33,769 nucleotides of DNA. Origin: an uncultured Pseudomonadota bacterium. GTDB taxonomy: Bacteria > Pseudomonadota > Gammaproteobacteria > Burkholderiales > CAIKXV01. Shown piece after piece: positions 9,179 through 17,686 of the stretch. A program made the translations under genes and the position numbers. Where the stretch lies: the NCBI GenBank assembly GCA_903831455.1, contig CAIKXV010000011.1:1-33769 (forward strand). The letters run 5' to 3'. Under the pieces are notes generated by a model, which saw nothing but the letters and a program-made list of their open reading frames with translations, was not told the DNA's origin and did no database searches. Each line of letters opens with the position of its first letter. Positions within the stretch are counted from its first letter, which is position 1.

Positions 9179-9194
9179 GCGGAACATGTTCCGC
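9179..9194. promoter_or_regulatory. 16-bp perfect palindrome GCGGAACATGTTCCGC, candidate operator
   Basis: Read directly; 69 nt upstream of the Bug-type SBP start. Confidence 0.5.
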
Positions 9195-9263
9195 CTGGCG
9201 GCGGCGACAGTGCTATCTTTTTCTCCTGAAACTACCGGCAATAAACCGGCAGGAGGAGAGACG

Positions 9264-10247
9264 ATGGCATGTACGATCACGCGCCTCGCGCTGTGCGCAG
9301 GCTCGCTTTGCGCGGCGGCATCCCTGTTGCCGGTGCCCGCCTGGGCACAGGCCTACCCCAATCGCCCGATTCGCCTGATCACGCCTTTCCCGCCGGGCGC
9401 AACGACCGATGCGCTCTCCAGGATCATCGCTTCGCGCATGACCGAGAGCTGGGGGCAGAGTGTCCTGGTCGACAATCGGCCTGGTGCGGGCGGAGTCGTT
9501 GGCACTGAACTGGCGGTCCGCGCGCCCGCCGATGGATACACGATCGTCAACGTGATCAGTTCGCATGCCGTCAACCCCAGCATCTACCCGCGCATGCCCT
9601 ACGACGCCATCCGCGATTTCACGCCTGTCATTCCGCTGGCCAGGGTTGCCAGCGTGCTGGTGGTGCCTTCGAACTCGACGATCACCTCGGTCAAGGATCT
9701 GGTGGCGGTCGCTCGCGCCCATCCGGGGAAGATCAGTTTCGGCTCCGCGGGTACCGGGAGTTCGAGCCACTTGATTGGTGAACTCTTCCGCCTGCTTGCA
9801 AAGGCGGAAATCACGCACGTGCCCTACAAGGGCGGCGCGCCGGCGCTGAACGACGTGCTGGGCGGCAACATCCCGCTCGTGATCGGCACCACGACCACCG
9901 TGACGCCTTTCGTGAGAAGCGGCAAGTTGCGCGCTCTGGCGATCAGCAGCGCCAAGCGCTCGCGCCTGCTGCCCGATGTCCCCGCGCTCGCCGAGCAGGG
10001 TTTCCCTGAAATCGATGCGACCGAGTGGTGGGCGATTCTCGCTCCGGCCGGAGTGCCCGCCAGCATCGCGAAACGGCTCAATGGCGAAATCGCGCGCATC
10101 ATGAACCTGCCCGATGTCACCGAGCAACTGAACGGCTTTGGCGCGGAGTTCATCGGCGGCACGCCCGAGGACCTCACCGCTTTCATCAAGCGCGAAATGG
10201 CGCGCTGGGCACCCGTGGTCAAGGCGGCCAACATTCGCGCCGAGTGA
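9264..10247 (+). CDS. Bug/TctC family tripartite tricarboxylate transporter substrate-binding protein
   Basis: AWAQAYPNRPIRLITPFPPGATTDALSRIIA, DNRPGAGGVVGTELAVRAPADGYT; signal peptide; aggaggagag RBS before ATG 9264. Confidence 0.95.
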   Translation: MACTITRLALCAGSLCAAASLLPVPAWAQAYPNRPIRLITPFPPGATTDALSRIIASRMTESWGQSVLVDNRPGAGGVVGTELAVRAPADGYTIVNVISSHAVNPSIYPRMPYDAIRDFTPVIPLARVASVLVVPSNSTITSVKDLVAVARAHPGKISFGSAGTGSSSHLIGELFRLLAKAEITHVPYKGGAPALNDVLGGNIPLVIGTTTTVTPFVRSGKLRALAISSAKRSRLLPDVPALAEQGFPEIDATEWWAILAPAGVPASIAKRLNGEIARIMNLPDVTEQLNGFGAEFIGGTPEDLTAFIKREMARWAPVVKAANIRAE

Positions 10248-10274: not shown

Positions 10275-11450
10275 ATGGACTTCGCGTTTGACGAGTCGCA
10301 GCGGCTCATCTGCGAGATGGCGGAGCGCGTGGCACGGCGCGAACTCGAGCCTCGGCTCGAGGCGGTTTCGCCTGACCAGCCCATCCAGAGGGAACTTCTC
10401 CTCGAATTGTTCTCCGCGGTACGACCTATGGGTCTGCTCGCGCCTCGCCTTCCCGAGGCAGCAGGCGGGGCGGGGCTTGCCATGCTTGACTACGGGCTGA
10501 TGCTCGAACGCATGCCGGCGGCGCTGGCCATCAGCCTGATCGCGCACGAGGGATGCATCGCGCGACTGTATGCCGAGGGGAATCCGGCGCAGCGTGAGCG
10601 GTGGCTGCCGCCCCTGGTAGCCGGTACGGCCGTCGGATGTACCGGTTCCAGCGAGCCTGCGGCCGGATCGGACCCACGGGGAGTACAGACACGCCTCGAG
10701 CGGCGCGACGGTCGCCTGCAACTGACTGGCCGCAAGCTGTGGATCACCAACGCTTCGGTCGCCGATCTGATGATCGTTACCTGCCGCGATCTGCGCGAAC
10801 CGGCCGCAGATCGTGCGTCGCTGACGAAGGTCGTGGTGGCTCCGCGTGGTCCTGCCTGCGAAGTGCGCGAGATCGACACCATTGGCCTGCGCCAGGGCCT
10901 GCTCGCCGAGGTCATGTTCGACGCCCATCCGGTCGAGCCCGCGGATGTGATCGAGTCGCAGGCGGCAACCGAGGTGCTGAAGGCGACCTGGTCGGTGAAT
11001 CGCCCGCTCATCGGGCTGATCGCCGTCGGGCTCGCGCAACGCGCGTTCGAGCAAGCCCGGACGTACTGCGGGTTGCGCGAGCAGTTCGGCCGGGTGATCG
11101 CCGGGCACCAGCTGGTACAGAAGACGTTGTCCGATATTGCGACCCGTATCGAGGCGAGCCGCCTGCTCTGCTACAGCGCGCTCGCAGCCATCGACCGCGG
11201 CGAAGGTTCCGCGGGGCGGGGCGCGATGGCCAAGCGCCATGCCCAGGTGGCCTGCCAGGAGGCAATCTGGGAGTCGATGAACCTGCTCGGTGCCAGCGGC
11301 CTCGCCACCGAGACGGGAATCGAGCGGCTCTACCGCGATGTACGCATGCTGGCGATCCCGGACGGGACCAACGAGATCCTCGCGCTGATCCATGGCCGAG
11401 AACTGACCGGTGTCGATGCCTTGCGTGGCGCGCCGCCACGACGTCCATGA
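10275..11450 (+). CDS. Acyl-CoA dehydrogenase family protein
   Basis: MDFAFDESQRLICEMAERVARREL..., GRKLWITNASVADL, REQFGRVIAGHQLVQ, YRDVRMLAIPDGTNEI. Confidence 0.92.
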   Translation: MDFAFDESQRLICEMAERVARRELEPRLEAVSPDQPIQRELLLELFSAVRPMGLLAPRLPEAAGGAGLAMLDYGLMLERMPAALAISLIAHEGCIARLYAEGNPAQRERWLPPLVAGTAVGCTGSSEPAAGSDPRGVQTRLERRDGRLQLTGRKLWITNASVADLMIVTCRDLREPAADRASLTKVVVAPRGPACEVREIDTIGLRQGLLAEVMFDAHPVEPADVIESQAATEVLKATWSVNRPLIGLIAVGLAQRAFEQARTYCGLREQFGRVIAGHQLVQKTLSDIATRIEASRLLCYSALAAIDRGEGSAGRGAMAKRHAQVACQEAIWESMNLLGASGLATETGIERLYRDVRMLAIPDGTNEILALIHGRELTGVDALRGAPPRRP

Positions 11451-13528
11451 CCTCTGCTCCCCCCCCCGGGCTTGCGGGTGTCGAGGTGATCGAAGCCGGG
11501 GGTGATCGGGCGACACGGATCTGCGCCCGCCTGCTGGCGGGCATGGGAGCCCGCGTCGTGCGGGATCCTGGCACTCCTGCCGGAGCCGATGATCCGCTCG
11601 GCGTGACTGGCGAGGGATATGCCGGGACGCTGACCCGGGTGCCCGACGTGCGTCTGATCGACGAGGTCGCGGTGGCGCAAGAGATTGCCCGGGGCGCCGT
11701 CGACCTGACGAGCGGCACGATCGTCACGTCAATCACGGCCCTTGGACGCGAGCGCGCGGCCCGGGGTGAGAGCGCCTGCGAACTCGCCCTCCAGGCGCGG
11801 GGTGGGCTGATGGCGGTCACCGGCGAGGTGGGCGGCTCACCCCAGGCCGTCAGGGTGCCCGTGTCGGCGATGCTGGGCGGGCTGGTCGCCGCGACCGCAA
11901 CCCTTGCGGCGGTTCGCCATCGTCGACTGGGCGGACCGGGCCAGTCGGTCGATGTGTGCCTGCTCGAGGTGATCGCCGATCAGTTGCGCACGCAGGCCTC
12001 CCTGGTCTTCGAAGGGCGCCGGGACGGCTATCGGGCGGGCAGTCGTCATCCGGTATGCGCGCCCTGGAATGCCTATCGCGCCTCGGACGGCTGGGTGGTG
12101 ATCTGCTCTGCGAGCGACGCACAGTGGCGTTCGCTGGCCCGGTGCATCGATCCGCGGCTGGCGGACGATGGACGTTTTGCGACCGTCGACCAGCGGCGGG
12201 GCGACGTGGAGACGCTCGACACGCTGATCGAGCGCTGGACGTCCGCGAGGCGCGTCGAGGACATCGTGGCCGCAGTGGAGGCGGTGGATGTCCCGGTCGG
12301 ACCTGTGTCCACGGTGGCGCGGTTGCACGAGGCCGCGCGCGCGTGCGCGACCGACGGCATCGCGCCGGCCCTGCGCTCCCCCGTCCGGTATACCCGCCAC
12401 GCGCATGCGCCTGCGAAGCGGCTGCCAGTCGCTGCAGCATCGCTGCCCCTGTCCGGTATTCGCGTGATCGAATTGTCGCGCTACGCGGCGGGCCCGGTCG
12501 CGGGCACGCTGCTCGCGGCGCTCGGAGCCGAGGTAATCAAGGTCGAGGCTCCAGGGGGCGAGGACTGTCGTGCGTGGGCGCCCCGGTTCGGCGATACCTC
12601 GGGCTACTTCGCCAACTACAACACGGGAAAGCGGTCGGTCGTACTCGACCTTTCACGGCCGAGCGGTCGCACCGCCCTCTGGCAGCTCATCGGAAGCGCG
12701 CAGGTTCTCCTGTCGAATCTGCGTCCCGGCGTCCTGGATCGCATGGGATTCGATCCGCTCGCCCTCGCTGCGCGCTGTCCGGGCCTGGTCCAGGCCGAGA
12801 TCTCGGGTTACGGGCGCCACGGGCCGCGCGCTGCCGCGCTCGACACCGTCATCCAGGCGCAAAGCGGGCTGCTTTCGCTTGTCGGCACGCCGGGTGGCGC
12901 TCCCTGCCGCGTCGGCCTGTCGATCGCCGACCAGGTGGCCGGGCACTTTGCCGCGCAGGGTGTCATCGCGGCGCTCGAGTGCCGGGATCGCGACGGCTGC
13001 GGCGGACTCGTCGACGTGCCGATGATCGACGCGGCGATGTGGCTGACGCTGTATGCGTGGCCCGAAGGCGACGGCCCGCTGGAGGGCGTGGCCATGCTGC
13101 GCGCGCGCGACGGCTGGCTGTCGATGCAAGCCTCCGCGAATCACGTTCCGATCGCTGATGTCGCCGAACTGGATCGTGCCGCAGCACTCGAGGCACTCGC
13201 GACGCGCGGGATCGAGGCCTATCCGGTCCGCGAACCCGGCGAGGTGTTCGCCGAGGATCCGGTGCTGCGGGACAGGGCGAGCGTGGCCCTCGTGCAACAC
13301 CCCTGCGGCGTACGGGTGCCTGTCCTGCGTGTGCCGCTTGGCTTGCAGGGAACGCCGGTCAGCGTTCCGGCGCAACTCGCGGCGCTCGGCGCGGATAACG
13401 CCACCCTGCTTGCCCGGGACCTCGATCCTCCTGCCGGGGACCGGGGCGCAGTCGCCGTGTCGGGCGAGGTGGCGGACCCGGGCGCGGGGTCGATTCGACT
13501 CGACACCGATGACGGGAGGCTCTCATGA
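11447..13528 (+). CDS. Fused two-domain CaiB/BaiF (family III) CoA transferase with partly degenerate halves
   Basis: ATGA overlap with upstream gene; N half GVEVIEAGGDRATRICARLLAGMGARVV, C half GIRVIELSRYAAGPVAGTLLAALGAEVIKVEAPGGED...GYGRHGPRAAALDTVIQAQSGL. Confidence 0.88.
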   Translation: MTSAPPPGLAGVEVIEAGGDRATRICARLLAGMGARVVRDPGTPAGADDPLGVTGEGYAGTLTRVPDVRLIDEVAVAQEIARGAVDLTSGTIVTSITALGRERAARGESACELALQARGGLMAVTGEVGGSPQAVRVPVSAMLGGLVAATATLAAVRHRRLGGPGQSVDVCLLEVIADQLRTQASLVFEGRRDGYRAGSRHPVCAPWNAYRASDGWVVICSASDAQWRSLARCIDPRLADDGRFATVDQRRGDVETLDTLIERWTSARRVEDIVAAVEAVDVPVGPVSTVARLHEAARACATDGIAPALRSPVRYTRHAHAPAKRLPVAAASLPLSGIRVIELSRYAAGPVAGTLLAALGAEVIKVEAPGGEDCRAWAPRFGDTSGYFANYNTGKRSVVLDLSRPSGRTALWQLIGSAQVLLSNLRPGVLDRMGFDPLALAARCPGLVQAEISGYGRHGPRAAALDTVIQAQSGLLSLVGTPGGAPCRVGLSIADQVAGHFAAQGVIAALECRDRDGCGGLVDVPMIDAAMWLTLYAWPEGDGPLEGVAMLRARDGWLSMQASANHVPIADVAELDRAAALEALATRGIEAYPVREPGEVFAEDPVLRDRASVALVQHPCGVRVPVLRVPLGLQGTPVSVPAQLAALGADNATLLARDLDPPAGDRGAVAVSGEVADPGAGSIRLDTDDGRLS

Positions 13529-14778
13529 CGCAGGCAACCACGCCTCAGGCCGCGACGCCGCCGCTGGCGGGCATGCGCGTACTCGACTTCAGTCGCCTGC
13601 TGCCGGGCCCGTGGGCGACGCAACTGCTCGGCGCGCTGGGTGCGGACGTGGTGAAGGTCGAACAGCCGGGCGTCGGCGATCTCAGTCGTCACAATCATCC
13701 CCGCCTGCGCGAGGAGAGCGTGTACTTCAACGGGGTCAATGCCAACAAGCGCAGCGTGGCGATCGATCTCGCTCGCCCCGAGGGGGCTGCGCTGCTGCCC
13801 GCCCTGCTGGGCTGGGCCGACGTGGTGATCGAATCCTTCCGGCCGGGCGTGGCCCGACGTCTCGGGATCGATGCCGAGACAGTGCGCGGATGTCGTCCGG
13901 ACGTGATTCACTGCTCGATCTCGGGCTTTGGCCAGACCGGGCCGTTGTCGAACATCGCCGGGCACGACCTCGTGATCCAGGCGGCGACCGGTGTGATGGG
14001 TTGCCAGCCTCGAGGCGATGTCCCGCCCGAGGTGCCCGGCTTCCAGTCGGCCGACTTCGCGGGTGCGATGACCGCGGTGGTGGCCGTGCAGGCGGCGTGG
14101 GCGCGGCGCGGGAAGGACGGGACCGGCTGCACCATCGACCTGTCGATGTACGACGCGCTGCTCTCGATGTGCGTGATTCCGCTCGCCTCCGCGATGGCGA
14201 GGCTTGCCGGCGCGAGCGGCGAGCCCCGGCAGGAGGTGTTCGGAGCCAATCCCCGCTACTGCACCTACCGGACACGGGATGGCCGGGCGGTGGCCGTGTC
14301 GCTGCTCGAGGCACGGGCGTGGGCCGCGTTCTGTGGTGCGATCGGGCGAACGGATCTGGTGCGAGAGGACGAGTCGCACGCCGACCGTCTGACCGATCAC
14401 GGGGAACACGGGCTGCGCTACCGTGAAGCCATCGCGAACTACTGCGCGAGCCGCGACCGCGACGATCTGGTGTCCGAGATGCGCAGCCTTGGCATTGCGA
14501 TCAGTCCCGTGCTGGATCCGGACGAGGCGCTCGCACTCGATCATGCCCAGGCGCGAGGGGACATCGACTGGATCGAGCATCCGGTGGAGGGGCGCATGCC
14601 GCAACTGCTCACGCCTCTTCACCAGTCCGGTCTGGCCTCCCGGCCCCGGCCCGCCCCCGTGCTCGGGGAGCATACGCTGGCCGTCCTCCGGGAGGTCGGT
14701 GCGTCGTCCGAGTCGATCGACAGGGCGCTCGCCTGTGGCGCGCTCGTCCAGTGGCAGCCGGAGCGCCGAGGTGGGTGA
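13525..14778 (+). CDS. CaiB/BaiF family CoA transferase
   Basis: GMRVLDFSRLLPGPWATQLLGALGADVVKVEQPGVGD, GFGQTGPLSNIAGHDLVIQAATG; ATGA overlap. Confidence 0.94.
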   Translation: MTQATTPQAATPPLAGMRVLDFSRLLPGPWATQLLGALGADVVKVEQPGVGDLSRHNHPRLREESVYFNGVNANKRSVAIDLARPEGAALLPALLGWADVVIESFRPGVARRLGIDAETVRGCRPDVIHCSISGFGQTGPLSNIAGHDLVIQAATGVMGCQPRGDVPPEVPGFQSADFAGAMTAVVAVQAAWARRGKDGTGCTIDLSMYDALLSMCVIPLASAMARLAGASGEPRQEVFGANPRYCTYRTRDGRAVAVSLLEARAWAAFCGAIGRTDLVREDESHADRLTDHGEHGLRYREAIANYCASRDRDDLVSEMRSLGIAISPVLDPDEALALDHAQARGDIDWIEHPVEGRMPQLLTPLHQSGLASRPRPAPVLGEHTLAVLREVGASSESIDRALACGALVQWQPERRGG

Positions 14779-16138
14779 CTTCCAGCAGCGCGCAGGCCAA
14801 TGGCTCGCTGGCCTCGAGGGCACGCTACCGCCCCCGGTGGACGAAGCCTGCCGTCTTGCGCTGGTCGACTGGCTGGGCGTGACCCTCGGCGGACTGGATG
14901 AACCCGCCGCGCGTATCGCTCGTGCGCAGGCGGCACACCTGTTCGGTCCGGGGCCCTGCGCCGTGCTTGGGAGCGGGTACGCTTCGCCAGCGGCCGCGGC
15001 ACTCGCCAATGGCACGGCAGCTCACTGTCTGGATTTCGATGACACCCATGTAGGCGCGGTCACTCACGTCGGTGCACCGCTGTGGGCCGCGCTGCTGGCC
15101 TGCCTGCAGTCGCGTCTGTCGCGGGGGAATTGCATCGATGAACGAGCGCTGCTGCGCGCCTTCGCGGCGGGCTATCAGGTGGCGGCTCGCGCCGGCACCG
15201 GGCTGGGCGAGCAGGCGACGGCCCGGGGCTGGCATGGCACCGGCGTCTTCGGACGCATCGGTGCCGCAGCGGGCTGCGCGGCGCTCGCGGGGCTCGATGC
15301 GGAGGGTTGCAGCCACGCGCTCGGGTTGGCCGCCACTCAGGCGGCCGGACTGGTGGCCTCCTTCGGGACCATGGCCAAGCCGCTGCACGCCGGCAAGGCT
15401 GCAGCCGACGGCCTGCTCGCGGCGACACTGGCCGAGGGGGGCTTTCGGGGTGCCGCGAACCTGCTGGGGCCGGAGGGCGCGCTCGCCCGTGCGCTGGTCC
15501 AGCAGGTTGCCGTGCCGGCCGACCTTGCCCGCCCGGTTGATGACGGGTGGGAAGTGCTGGCCAACAGCGTCAAGCCGTATGCGGCCTGCCATCTCACGCA
15601 CCCTGCCGTGGATGCCGCACGATTGTTGCGCCCCCAACTGGGCGATGCGCAGGTCGGCGCGGTAGTCTGCTCCGTCGGTGCGCTCGCCGTACAGGTCACC
15701 GGATCGCGGGATCGCGTGCCGACCTGCGCGCTGGAGGCCAAGTTCGACCTGCCGTGGTGCGTCGCGCTTGCGCTGCGCGGCCATGCCGTGTCGGCCGACG
15801 ATTTCCGCGAACCCTGGAGCGCCCCGCCCGATGTCGCCGCGCTGGCCCGTCGCGTCCGGTTGCTGGAGGACGACGGCAGCGGCTTCGCGTCGGCCAGCGT
15901 GGAGGTGCAAACGGAGGATGGACGTACTCTTTCACTCCGGGTAGATCCGGCACTCGGTCATCCCGGCAACCCGATTGGCTGGGAAGCACTGCGTCGGAAG
16001 TATCTGGCGCTGGCTGCCCCGGTGCTTGGTCGTGCGGCCGAATCGCTGTTCGAAGCCGCGCGTGCGCTCGGGCACGGCGCGACCTGGCCGGATATTGCCG
16101 CCGCGCTGGATCAGGCGACTTGCGAAAGGAGAACGTGA
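14771..16138 (+). CDS. MmgE/PrpD family protein
   Basis: GTG start overlapping previous stop by 8 bp; ALVDWLGVTLGGLDEPAARIA, ANGTAAHCLDFDDTH, FGRIGAAAGCAALAGLDAEGCSHALGLAATQAAGL, KPLHAGKAAADGLLAA. Confidence 0.93.
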   Translation: MGDFQQRAGQWLAGLEGTLPPPVDEACRLALVDWLGVTLGGLDEPAARIARAQAAHLFGPGPCAVLGSGYASPAAAALANGTAAHCLDFDDTHVGAVTHVGAPLWAALLACLQSRLSRGNCIDERALLRAFAAGYQVAARAGTGLGEQATARGWHGTGVFGRIGAAAGCAALAGLDAEGCSHALGLAATQAAGLVASFGTMAKPLHAGKAAADGLLAATLAEGGFRGAANLLGPEGALARALVQQVAVPADLARPVDDGWEVLANSVKPYAACHLTHPAVDAARLLRPQLGDAQVGAVVCSVGALAVQVTGSRDRVPTCALEAKFDLPWCVALALRGHAVSADDFREPWSAPPDVAALARRVRLLEDDGSGFASASVEVQTEDGRTLSLRVDPALGHPGNPIGWEALRRKYLALAAPVLGRAAESLFEAARALGHGATWPDIAAALDQATCERRT

Positions 16139-16932
16139 TGGATCTTGGGCTGGCGGGGCGGCGAGCGCTGGTGACGGGAGCGGGTAGCGGCATCGGGCGT
16201 GCCATCGCGCTTGCGCTGGCCGCCGAAGGGGTGGCCGTAGCGGTCAATGACGTCGACGCGGCCGGCGTGCAGGCGACCGTTGCGATGGCGCGCGAGGCGG
16301 GTGCCCAAGCCTGCGCTGCGGTTTTCGACATTTCGTCGCTCGAGGCCGTGCAGGACGGTGTCGCTGCCGCTGCGCAGAAGTGCGGCGGCAGCATCGATGT
16401 TCTGGTCAACAACGCGGCCGTGCTCGCGGCTCATGCGCCTTTCCTCGAGACGGATCCCGCCGACTGGCGGCGCGAGATCGACGTGATCCTGATCGGCACG
16501 CTCAACTGTGCGCGGGCCGTACTGCCCGGGATGGTCGCAGCCGGTGGCGGCAAGATCGTGAACGTCGTCACCGATGCTGCGCGTGTTGGGCAGGAGCGGG
16601 AGGTGACCTACTCGGCGGCCAAGGGGGGCGTGATCTCGTTTACCCGGTCGATCGCTCGCGAGGTCGGTCCGGCGGGCGTGAACGTCAATGCGGTGTCGCC
16701 CGCCGCGACCAACTCGCCGATGCGGCAGAAGGCGCTGGCCGCGATCGAAGCGAAAATCGGAGCCGAAAGGCTGGCCGAGCGGGAGGTCAAGGTGCGTCGC
16801 GCATATCCGATGCGCCGCATCGGCGAACCCGAGGACATCGCCGCGACCGTCGTGTTCCTGTGCTCTGCGCCTGCGCGGCATATCACCGGGCAGATCCTCA
16901 GCGTCAATGGCGGGTACGCCATGGTGGGCTGA
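16138..16932 (+). CDS. SDR family oxidoreductase, BadH-like
   Basis: TGAGSGIGRAIAL, NNAAV, NVVTDAARVGQEREVTYSAAKGG (resembles the SDAARVG...YxxxK region I recall for BadH); TGATG overlap. Confidence 0.92.
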   Translation: MDLGLAGRRALVTGAGSGIGRAIALALAAEGVAVAVNDVDAAGVQATVAMAREAGAQACAAVFDISSLEAVQDGVAAAAQKCGGSIDVLVNNAAVLAAHAPFLETDPADWRREIDVILIGTLNCARAVLPGMVAAGGGKIVNVVTDAARVGQEREVTYSAAKGGVISFTRSIAREVGPAGVNVNAVSPAATNSPMRQKALAAIEAKIGAERLAEREVKVRRAYPMRRIGEPEDIAATVVFLCSAPARHITGQILSVNGGYAMVG

Positions 16933-16954: not shown

Positions 16955-17686
16955 ATGAGAACCCTGCAGAGAGCCCTGGGCATCCTCGAGATCTTCAGTT
17001 CGGAGAGGCCCTCGCTCTCGCTGCAGGAGATTGCCGAACGAGGCGGGCTCGCCAAGTCGACCGCGTTTCGCCTCGTGGCGGCGCTGGCCGAATCCGGCTA
17101 CCTGCTTCGGCTCGATGACCAGCGTTACTGCCTGTCGTTCCGCTTCACCCGTCTCGCCGCGCTGGTGCAGTCCACCCTGAGCGTTCGCGATGTGGCCAGG
17201 CCGCTGATGCAGGCCTTGTGCGATCGGACCGGCGAGACGGTGACCCTCAACGCCGTCGAGGGGCGGTACAGGATCTGCCTCGACGTGGTCTGTGCGATGT
17301 CGCCACTGATGAGCGTGACCCGAACCGGCGCCCGCTCGCCTCTGGTCGACGGGGCGAGCGCCCGTGTACTCATGGCCCGCTTGTCCGAGCCGCAGCGTGG
17401 CCGGGTCATCACGGCCGCTGCCCGCGCGTGTCATCAGCCACGCGCATCCTTCGCCCGGGAGATCGAGATCGTTGCCCGCCGTGGTTGGGCGGTCACACAT
17501 GGCGAGCGCGTAGCCGGACTGACAGCGGTCGCCGCGCTCGTTGGCGATGCCGACGGCACCTGGCCCTGGTGCCTGACCGTCGCCGGACCCACGGTCAGGC
17601 TTCAGCCGCGCGAACGCGAACTGGTGCGGCTCGTCCAGCAGGCCGCTGCCAGTGCCTCGCGCCAGATGGGGGCTCCGCTTGCCTGA
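16955..17686 (+). CDS. IclR family transcriptional regulator
   Basis: MRTLQRALGILEIFSSERPSLSLQEIAERGGLAKSTAFRLVAALAESGYL wHTH and downstream IclR effector-domain pattern. Confidence 0.92.
   Translation: MRTLQRALGILEIFSSERPSLSLQEIAERGGLAKSTAFRLVAALAESGYLLRLDDQRYCLSFRFTRLAALVQSTLSVRDVARPLMQALCDRTGETVTLNAVEGRYRICLDVVCAMSPLMSVTRTGARSPLVDGASARVLMARLSEPQRGRVITAAARACHQPRASFAREIEIVARRGWAVTHGERVAGLTAVAALVGDADGTWPWCLTVAGPTVRLQPRERELVRLVQQAAASASRQMGAPLA

Follow-up and report, generated by a model that had tools for sequence, protein, structure and literature searches.

A double family III CoA-transferase with complementary losses in its two halves and one probable active site

Textbooks describe family III CoA-transferases as interlocked dimers with two equal active sites. 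The gene analysed here lies in a stretch of DNA of 33,769 nucleotides (the window) and encodes two copies of the family III domain in one chain, both of them incomplete. The question is how many active sites such a chain could form, and from which parts. The preliminary description of the locus had proposed an intramolecular pseudo-dimer with one composite site.

Architecture of the double protein

The start codon of the gene overlaps the stop codon of an upstream acyl-CoA dehydrogenase gene (ATGA), and its own stop codon overlaps in the same way (ATGA) the start of the next gene, which encodes a full-length single CoA-transferase. In Pfam, CoA_transf_3 (PF02515) covers both halves of the 693-residue protein in four stretches (E 7e-120), and no Pfam family other than PF02515 was found in it. 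By PF02515 homology the double protein belongs to family III (CaiB/BaiF, Frc); automatic annotation labels such proteins merely CoA transferase. The features of the locus are collected in Table 1.

Table 1. Features of the double CoA-transferase gene and its cluster (positions in the window)
Feature	Coordinates	Strand	Basis
TctC/Bug-type carboxylate receptor gene, same cluster	9186..10247	+	
Acyl-CoA dehydrogenase gene, immediately upstream of the fusion	10275..11450	+	
Double family III CoA-transferase gene, 693 aa	11447..13528	+	ORF and PF02515 regions; orthologs
N-half Rossmann lobe remnant, residues 9-97	11471..11737	+	profile match, AlphaFold secondary structure, family comparison
Glu112, GAA, matching the conserved non-nucleophilic Asp of the xDxxxQ motif	11780..11782	+	family alignment
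Ala141, GCG, N-half counterpart of the nucleophile Asp	11867..11869	+	aligned residue, 23 fusions
N-half small domain, complete, residues 181-290	11987..12316	+	profile match, AlphaFold secondary structure
GSRH, residues 198-201, GNxH-type substrate loop	12038..12049	+	His201 aligned with YfdE His233
C-half Rossmann lobe, complete, and core helices, residues 333-540	12443..13066	+	Pfam, profile, AlphaFold
GKRS, residues 394-397, CoA-binding segment kept in C half	12626..12637	+	Lys395 invariant (23/23)
NLRPG, residues 424-428, CoA-binding segment kept in C half	12716..12730	+	family alignment; Mct CoA-adenine contacts
Asp466, GAC, in LDTVIQ, conserved 23/23, not the nucleophile	12842..12844	+	aligns with YfdE Asp144
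Asp495, GAC, nucleophile, in VGLSIADQVAG	12929..12931	+	YfdE numbering, Rv3272 D175A, Mct helix position
C-half small-domain remnant, residues 541-603	13067..13255	+	profile match, AlphaFold
C-terminal part of C-half large domain, kept, residues 604-650	13256..13396	+	profile match, AlphaFold
C-terminal tail, residues 658-693, predicted disordered, not in relatives	13418..13525	+	AlphaFold, ortholog comparison
Full-length single family III CoA-transferase gene	13525..14778	+	adjoins fusion also in G001, G002, G003, G005 and L030
MmgE/PrpD family gene, same cluster, start inferred	14771..16138	+	
Short-chain dehydrogenase (SDR) gene, same cluster	16138..16932	+	
IclR-type regulator gene, same cluster, start inferred	16955..17686	+	

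The halves were compared with a reference profile built from 29 single CoA-transferases (402 positions). In hmmsearch the matches of the N half covered profile positions 12-43 and 124-360, those of the C half 12-216 and 301-384; neither half aligned full length. The gaps are complementary. The N-half gap (44-123) corresponds to the CoA-binding part of the Rossmann lobe, most of which is missing, and the C-half gap (217-300) to the small-domain part with the substrate loop and helices. The N-lobe remnant retains beta1-alpha1-beta2 and beta4, and its deletion removed the beta-alpha unit carrying the CoA-binding GKRS and LRPG segments. The remnant of the C small domain consists of a beta hairpin and two helices; the GNxH loop and the helical part are deleted. 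Secondary structure taken from an AlphaFold model agrees: the N lobe lacks the strand-helix unit that corresponds to residues 396-416, and the C small domain has a hairpin (548-561) and the last helices, without the helices seen at 224-266 in the N half. The preliminary description had read the four domains in this way (N lobe shortened and without the GKRS...DL segment, N small domain full, C lobe complete, C small domain shortened), and the profile bears it out. Two equivalent complete halves, which would give two sites per pair, were not found in the window protein.

The complementary loss extends to the whole family of 23 homologous fusions, the window protein included; in each of them the C half has its entire Rossmann lobe and the N half its small domain. 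Since hmmalign occupancy misplaces the weak N-lobe and C-small-domain remnants in some rows, local hmmsearch boundaries and pairwise lengths were used instead. C halves have 154-162 residues between the chain start and the nucleophile position, N halves 104-163. From the nucleophile position to the end of the small domain there are 147-151 residues in the N halves, 109 in the C half of the window protein and as few as 65 in other C halves; the C-half maximum of 154 belongs to a distant outlier, L028. Two fusions, L039 and L072, retain hardly anything of the C small domain. Loss of the N lobe is graded: AGKRSV is still present in L034-L036 and has gone from the window protein, L052-L054 and L070; the deletion in the window protein is deeper than in most relatives.

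The outlier L028 (G015:C8, an ORF of 764 aa) is a more distant double CoA-transferase. Its C half has the Asp and a complete small domain. In its N half the nucleophile position is taken by Glu or Ala, and the GNxH His is absent. L028 could represent a stage preceding the loss of the C small domain.

Assignment of the nucleophile and the substrate loop

The preliminary description had taken Asp466 for the catalytic Asp and Glu112 for its replacement in the N half. The numbering of PDB structures ruled out this pair, and it was replaced by Asp495 and Ala141. Residue numbers in 4hl6 run 20 ahead of those of YfdE, so that its His253 is His233, the histidine of the GNxH loop. Asp193 of 4hl6, which is the catalytic Asp173 of YfdE, aligns with Asp495, and YfdE Asp144 aligns with Asp466. 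The catalytic role of YfdE Asp173 comes from mutation of its equivalent in UctC. When wild-type Rv3272 and its D175A mutant were aligned to the C half, they differed solely at the residue aligned to Asp495. The catalytic Asp165 of Mct sits in the last helix of the Rossmann fold; Asp495 likewise stands at the start of the last Rossmann helix (residues 493-516 in the AlphaFold model). A nucleophile Asp at the start of this helix was found in the C half and not in the N half. Codon 12842 thus encodes a residue other than the nucleophile, and the D-to-A mutation that had been proposed there would strike the wrong residue.

With this assignment the conclusion of complementary loss survives and becomes stronger. 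The nucleophile position is occupied by Asp in all 23 C halves and in 27 of 29 single CoA-transferases. The N halves have Glu (21/23), Ala (the window protein) or, in one exceptional fusion, Asp. The position of residue 112 behaves differently: N halves have Asp (12) or Glu (11) and never another residue, and at least four D/E switches at this position of the xDxxxQ motif were counted on the tree. Across the alignment, the acidic residue at position 112 looks structural.

The second element of a family III site of the YfdE type, the histidine of the GNxH loop, has the opposite distribution. GSRH201 aligns with the GNRH of YfdE (His233), and His201 is invariant in the 23 N halves. All N halves carry an RxGxxH motif in their small domain, and no C half has one at the corresponding place; three matches to the motif in C halves all lie outside the small domain. 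The polarity of loss is therefore the same in all 23 fusions, with the GNxH His on the N side only and the nucleophile Asp on the C side. Other invariant residues fall in the same two regions: Arg196, Gly198, Pro206, Trp207 and Asp214, besides His201, in the N small domain, and Arg375, Asn392, Lys395 and Asp401, besides Asp495, in the C lobe.

The Glu that occupies the nucleophile position in most N halves lies within a PxxE motif and is strongly conserved. Judged from this conservation, the second site may not be wholly functionless in relatives that have it. The same Glu bears on a reading in which the fold was kept and the reaction is not simple CoA transfer: the protein could be an isomerase, a racemase or a transferase-lyase like DddD, perhaps using the N-half Glu or the Glu112/Asp residue. 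The superfamily does include racemases and isomerases, and DddD, likewise a double CoA-transferase, cleaves its substrate as well. On the other hand, Asp495 and the GNxH-type loop match the acetyl-CoA:oxalate and succinyl-CoA:glutarate transferase subgroup, and in the window protein the conserved Glu is replaced by Ala. We regard such a reaction as rather unlikely.

A candidate composite site

In solved family III dimers each site consists of the Asp of one subunit and the small-domain loop of the other, and the substrate site lies between the large domain of one subunit and the small domain of the other. Accordingly, one YfdE site takes its Asp173 and His233 from different subunits. In Mct the CoA adenine is held by the lobe residues R75, F101 and R104; the region of these contacts is the region missing from the N lobe. 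Of the two possible pairs in the double protein, the C lobe and the N small domain are complete, and the N lobe and the C small domain lack the nucleophile, the CoA segment (in graded fashion) and the GNxH loop. Because the dimers combine the Asp of one subunit with the loop of the other, exactly one composite site should remain, that of Asp495 and His201. The protein is thus probably an interlocked family III dimer fused into a single chain, in which one of the two active sites was kept. The sequences show the anatomy of the protein, its conservation, the polarity of loss and the operon; intramolecular assembly of the site, one site per chain, transferase activity and the substrate class are what we infer for it. 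The proposal of a pseudo-dimer with one composite site, as made in the preliminary description, gains from the polarity of loss in the 23 fusions, the selection data and the predicted structure; its choice of catalytic Asp was mistaken, and the loss in the N lobe proved to be graded.

In such a chain the nucleophile, Asp495, and the Rossmann lobe that binds CoA would be contributed by the C half. The small domain would come from the N half, with the GSRH loop (His201) closing over the Asp495 site. The mirror site, made of the N lobe and the C small domain, would have been dismantled from both sides. Attack of Asp495 on the donor acyl-CoA would give an acyl-aspartyl anhydride, which would be converted to an aspartyl-CoA thioester, and CoA would then be passed to the acceptor carboxylate. 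The gene content of the operon points to an imported organic acid as the probable acceptor, which would then be processed by the adjoining acyl-CoA dehydrogenase, hydratases and dehydrogenase.

Selection was estimated by region. Between the window gene and its G003 ortholog, a pair with synonymous sites near saturation, dN/dS was 0.40 (N lobe) against 0.17 (C lobe), and 0.23 (N small domain) against 0.86 (C small domain). In the safer pair, G005 and G002, the values for these four regions were 0.26, 0.08, 0.14 and 0.43, respectively, and mean identity ranks the regions as dN/dS does. These values support a complementary relaxation of selection, which affects the lobe of the N half and the small domain of the C half. 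Relaxation in these parts could also be taken as the sign of a decaying gene without function. This is very improbable: in comparisons with usable dS, dN/dS was below 1 in all regions except the linker of one distant pair, none of the catalytic and loop residues varies among the 23 sequences, and the frames are intact in independent genomes.

AlphaFold2, run with 14 homologs, gave a compact monomer model of the window protein (mean pLDDT 82.7, pTM 0.88), and L039, which lacks the C small domain, was modelled with a pLDDT of 85.7 and a pTM of 0.91. The models support one compact body, with the reservation that a confident pTM does not prove pairing within the chain. Foldseek against the PDB returned family III chains with TM 0.65-0.75 (by target) over approximately 380 columns, that is, one half at a time, so these matches do not address the composite site. 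The parts might instead be exchanged between two double chains, each site being formed by the C lobe of one chain and the N small domain of the other. Canonical family III enzymes do interlock between chains, and sequence alone is silent on which chain pairs with which. We consider this domain-swapped dimer unlikely, since the monomer models of the window protein and L039 are compact and confident, and since interlocking partners that have been fused would most simply act as a self-contained pair.

Relatives, genomic context and known systems

Orthologs of the gene were found in four other genomes of the genus. The G003 ortholog (681 aa, 61% identical) lies in parts on two contigs, which share an overlap of 328 bases (99.4%); the orthologs of G001, G002 and G005 (686 aa) are about 44% identical. 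Further fusions are present in L030, another betaproteobacterial MAG sharing this operon, as well as in alphaproteobacterial MAGs and other Burkholderiales. Cultured bacteria carry fusions on plasmids: Pseudorhizobium flavum YW14 (WP_172977915.1), Paraburkholderia caribensis MWAP64 (WP_082670593.1), Caballeronia sp. NK8 and Sinorhizobium fredii GR64. The equal architecture in these independent genomes and plasmids rules out a frameshift or assembly artefact. The family is rare. At a strict cutoff at least 8 of 399 genomes of the order contain a fusion, five of them in the genus of the window; the count is a lower bound because only the best few candidates per genome were scored. Samples of genomes from the class and the phylum yielded no fusion beyond the window's own genome, the other matches being tandem pairs of single genes.

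Several candidates were rejected. L075 and L076, from outside the order, each consist of two full-length single genes in tandem and in the same frame, with one stop codon and a few bases between them, an arrangement from which a fusion could arise. L026 and L027, CoA-transferases of the window's own genome with long open frames, are single domains with an upstream open frame. Two further observations concern the collection. L030 has a second, divergent member of the double family (13350-14840, minus strand; full copy in L058) adjoining the operon with the first. L031 and L034 are contigs of lake or river MAGs titled Bordetella parapertussis, a species label that is probably wrong.

In a tree of the shared core (94 columns, hence of limited resolution) all the N halves grouped in a single clade (100/99) and all the C halves in a second (99/88), which indicates one origin of the fusion. 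This topology fits a single fusion of two copies that were already different or duplicated, followed by vertical descent and transfer. In a fuller scenario, an interlocked two-site homodimer became a self-interlocked single-site monomer, the idle site was dismantled stepwise in both halves and in parallel lineages, and the N-half Glu took a new role in most members. We offer it tentatively and think it doubtful as a whole.

The window and L030 share the gene order acyl-CoA dehydrogenase, double CoA-transferase, single CoA-transferase, MmgE/PrpD, SDR, IclR and enoyl-CoA hydratase, with TctC receptor genes near the operon in both. In P. flavum the order is SDR, acyl-CoA dehydrogenase, double CoA-transferase, IclR, hydratase and HMG-CoA lyase. 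From its gene context the operon appears to serve an organic acid that is taken up, activated with CoA and broken down in a beta-oxidation-like manner. In the neighbouring single CoA-transferase FGANP stands in place of the GNxH loop, so the two CoA-transferases of the operon probably use different acids. The double protein might also be a non-catalytic or partial partner in a heteromer with this neighbour. The two genes overlap in the window and are adjacent there and in G001, G002, G003, G005 and L030, and BbsEF is a precedent for a two-subunit enzyme. A heteromer nevertheless appears improbable, because the distant fusions of P. flavum and P. caribensis have no directly adjoining single CoA-transferase in the same direction, and the double protein keeps the full complement for one site.

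The best PDB matches of both halves belong to the YfdE-type group (SUGCT, 4ed9, Brucella 10uh/9zav). YfdE, an acetyl-CoA:oxalate CoA-transferase, and these proteins share with the double protein the sequence, the lobe, the nucleophile Asp and the GNxH-type loop. They are single-domain homodimers with two equivalent sites, whereas here one chain has unequal halves and one predicted site. The closest curated models are those for succinate-glutarate CoA-transferase and CoA:oxalate CoA-transferase; the scores (SucGlutTfsCaiB, 262 bits; PRK11430, 208) stayed far below the equivalog cutoffs of 750 and 522, respectively. Frc/YfdW and Mct share the interlocked architecture and the Asp mechanism, but they are homodimers and have a glycine-rich loop or Arg where the window protein has the GNxH-type loop. 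Frc D169E is poorly active. The structure 1vgr is among the PDB entries in Foldseek.

Double family III proteins and unequal pairs are already known. The DMSP CoA-transferase/lyase DddD likewise has two CaiB-type domains in one chain and is encoded in a catabolic gene cluster. Its reported domain boundaries set it apart: in DddD of Endozoicomonas the CaiB domains (1-416 and 439-821) are both full length, whereas both halves of the window protein are truncated. The substrate of DddD is different, too, and the gene context of the window is unlike the ddd cluster. BbsEF, the succinyl-CoA:benzylsuccinate CoA-transferase, likewise comprises two unequal family III polypeptides and is followed by an acyl-CoA dehydrogenase pathway; its PDB title names a D178-CoA adduct. 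Unlike the window protein, BbsEF consists of separate full-length subunits (410 and 409 residues), unfused and untruncated. A literature search with little subscription coverage yielded no report of a family III fusion truncated in a complementary way, which is weak evidence of novelty.

A natural fusion that has shed one site would show directly which subunit parts belong to which site in family III enzymes. Its graded intermediates, in which the N lobe is full or partly lost and the C small domain present or nearly gone, may show how a fused dimer loses its redundancy. For annotation, such proteins would count as enzymes with a single site, whose nucleophile lies in the C half.
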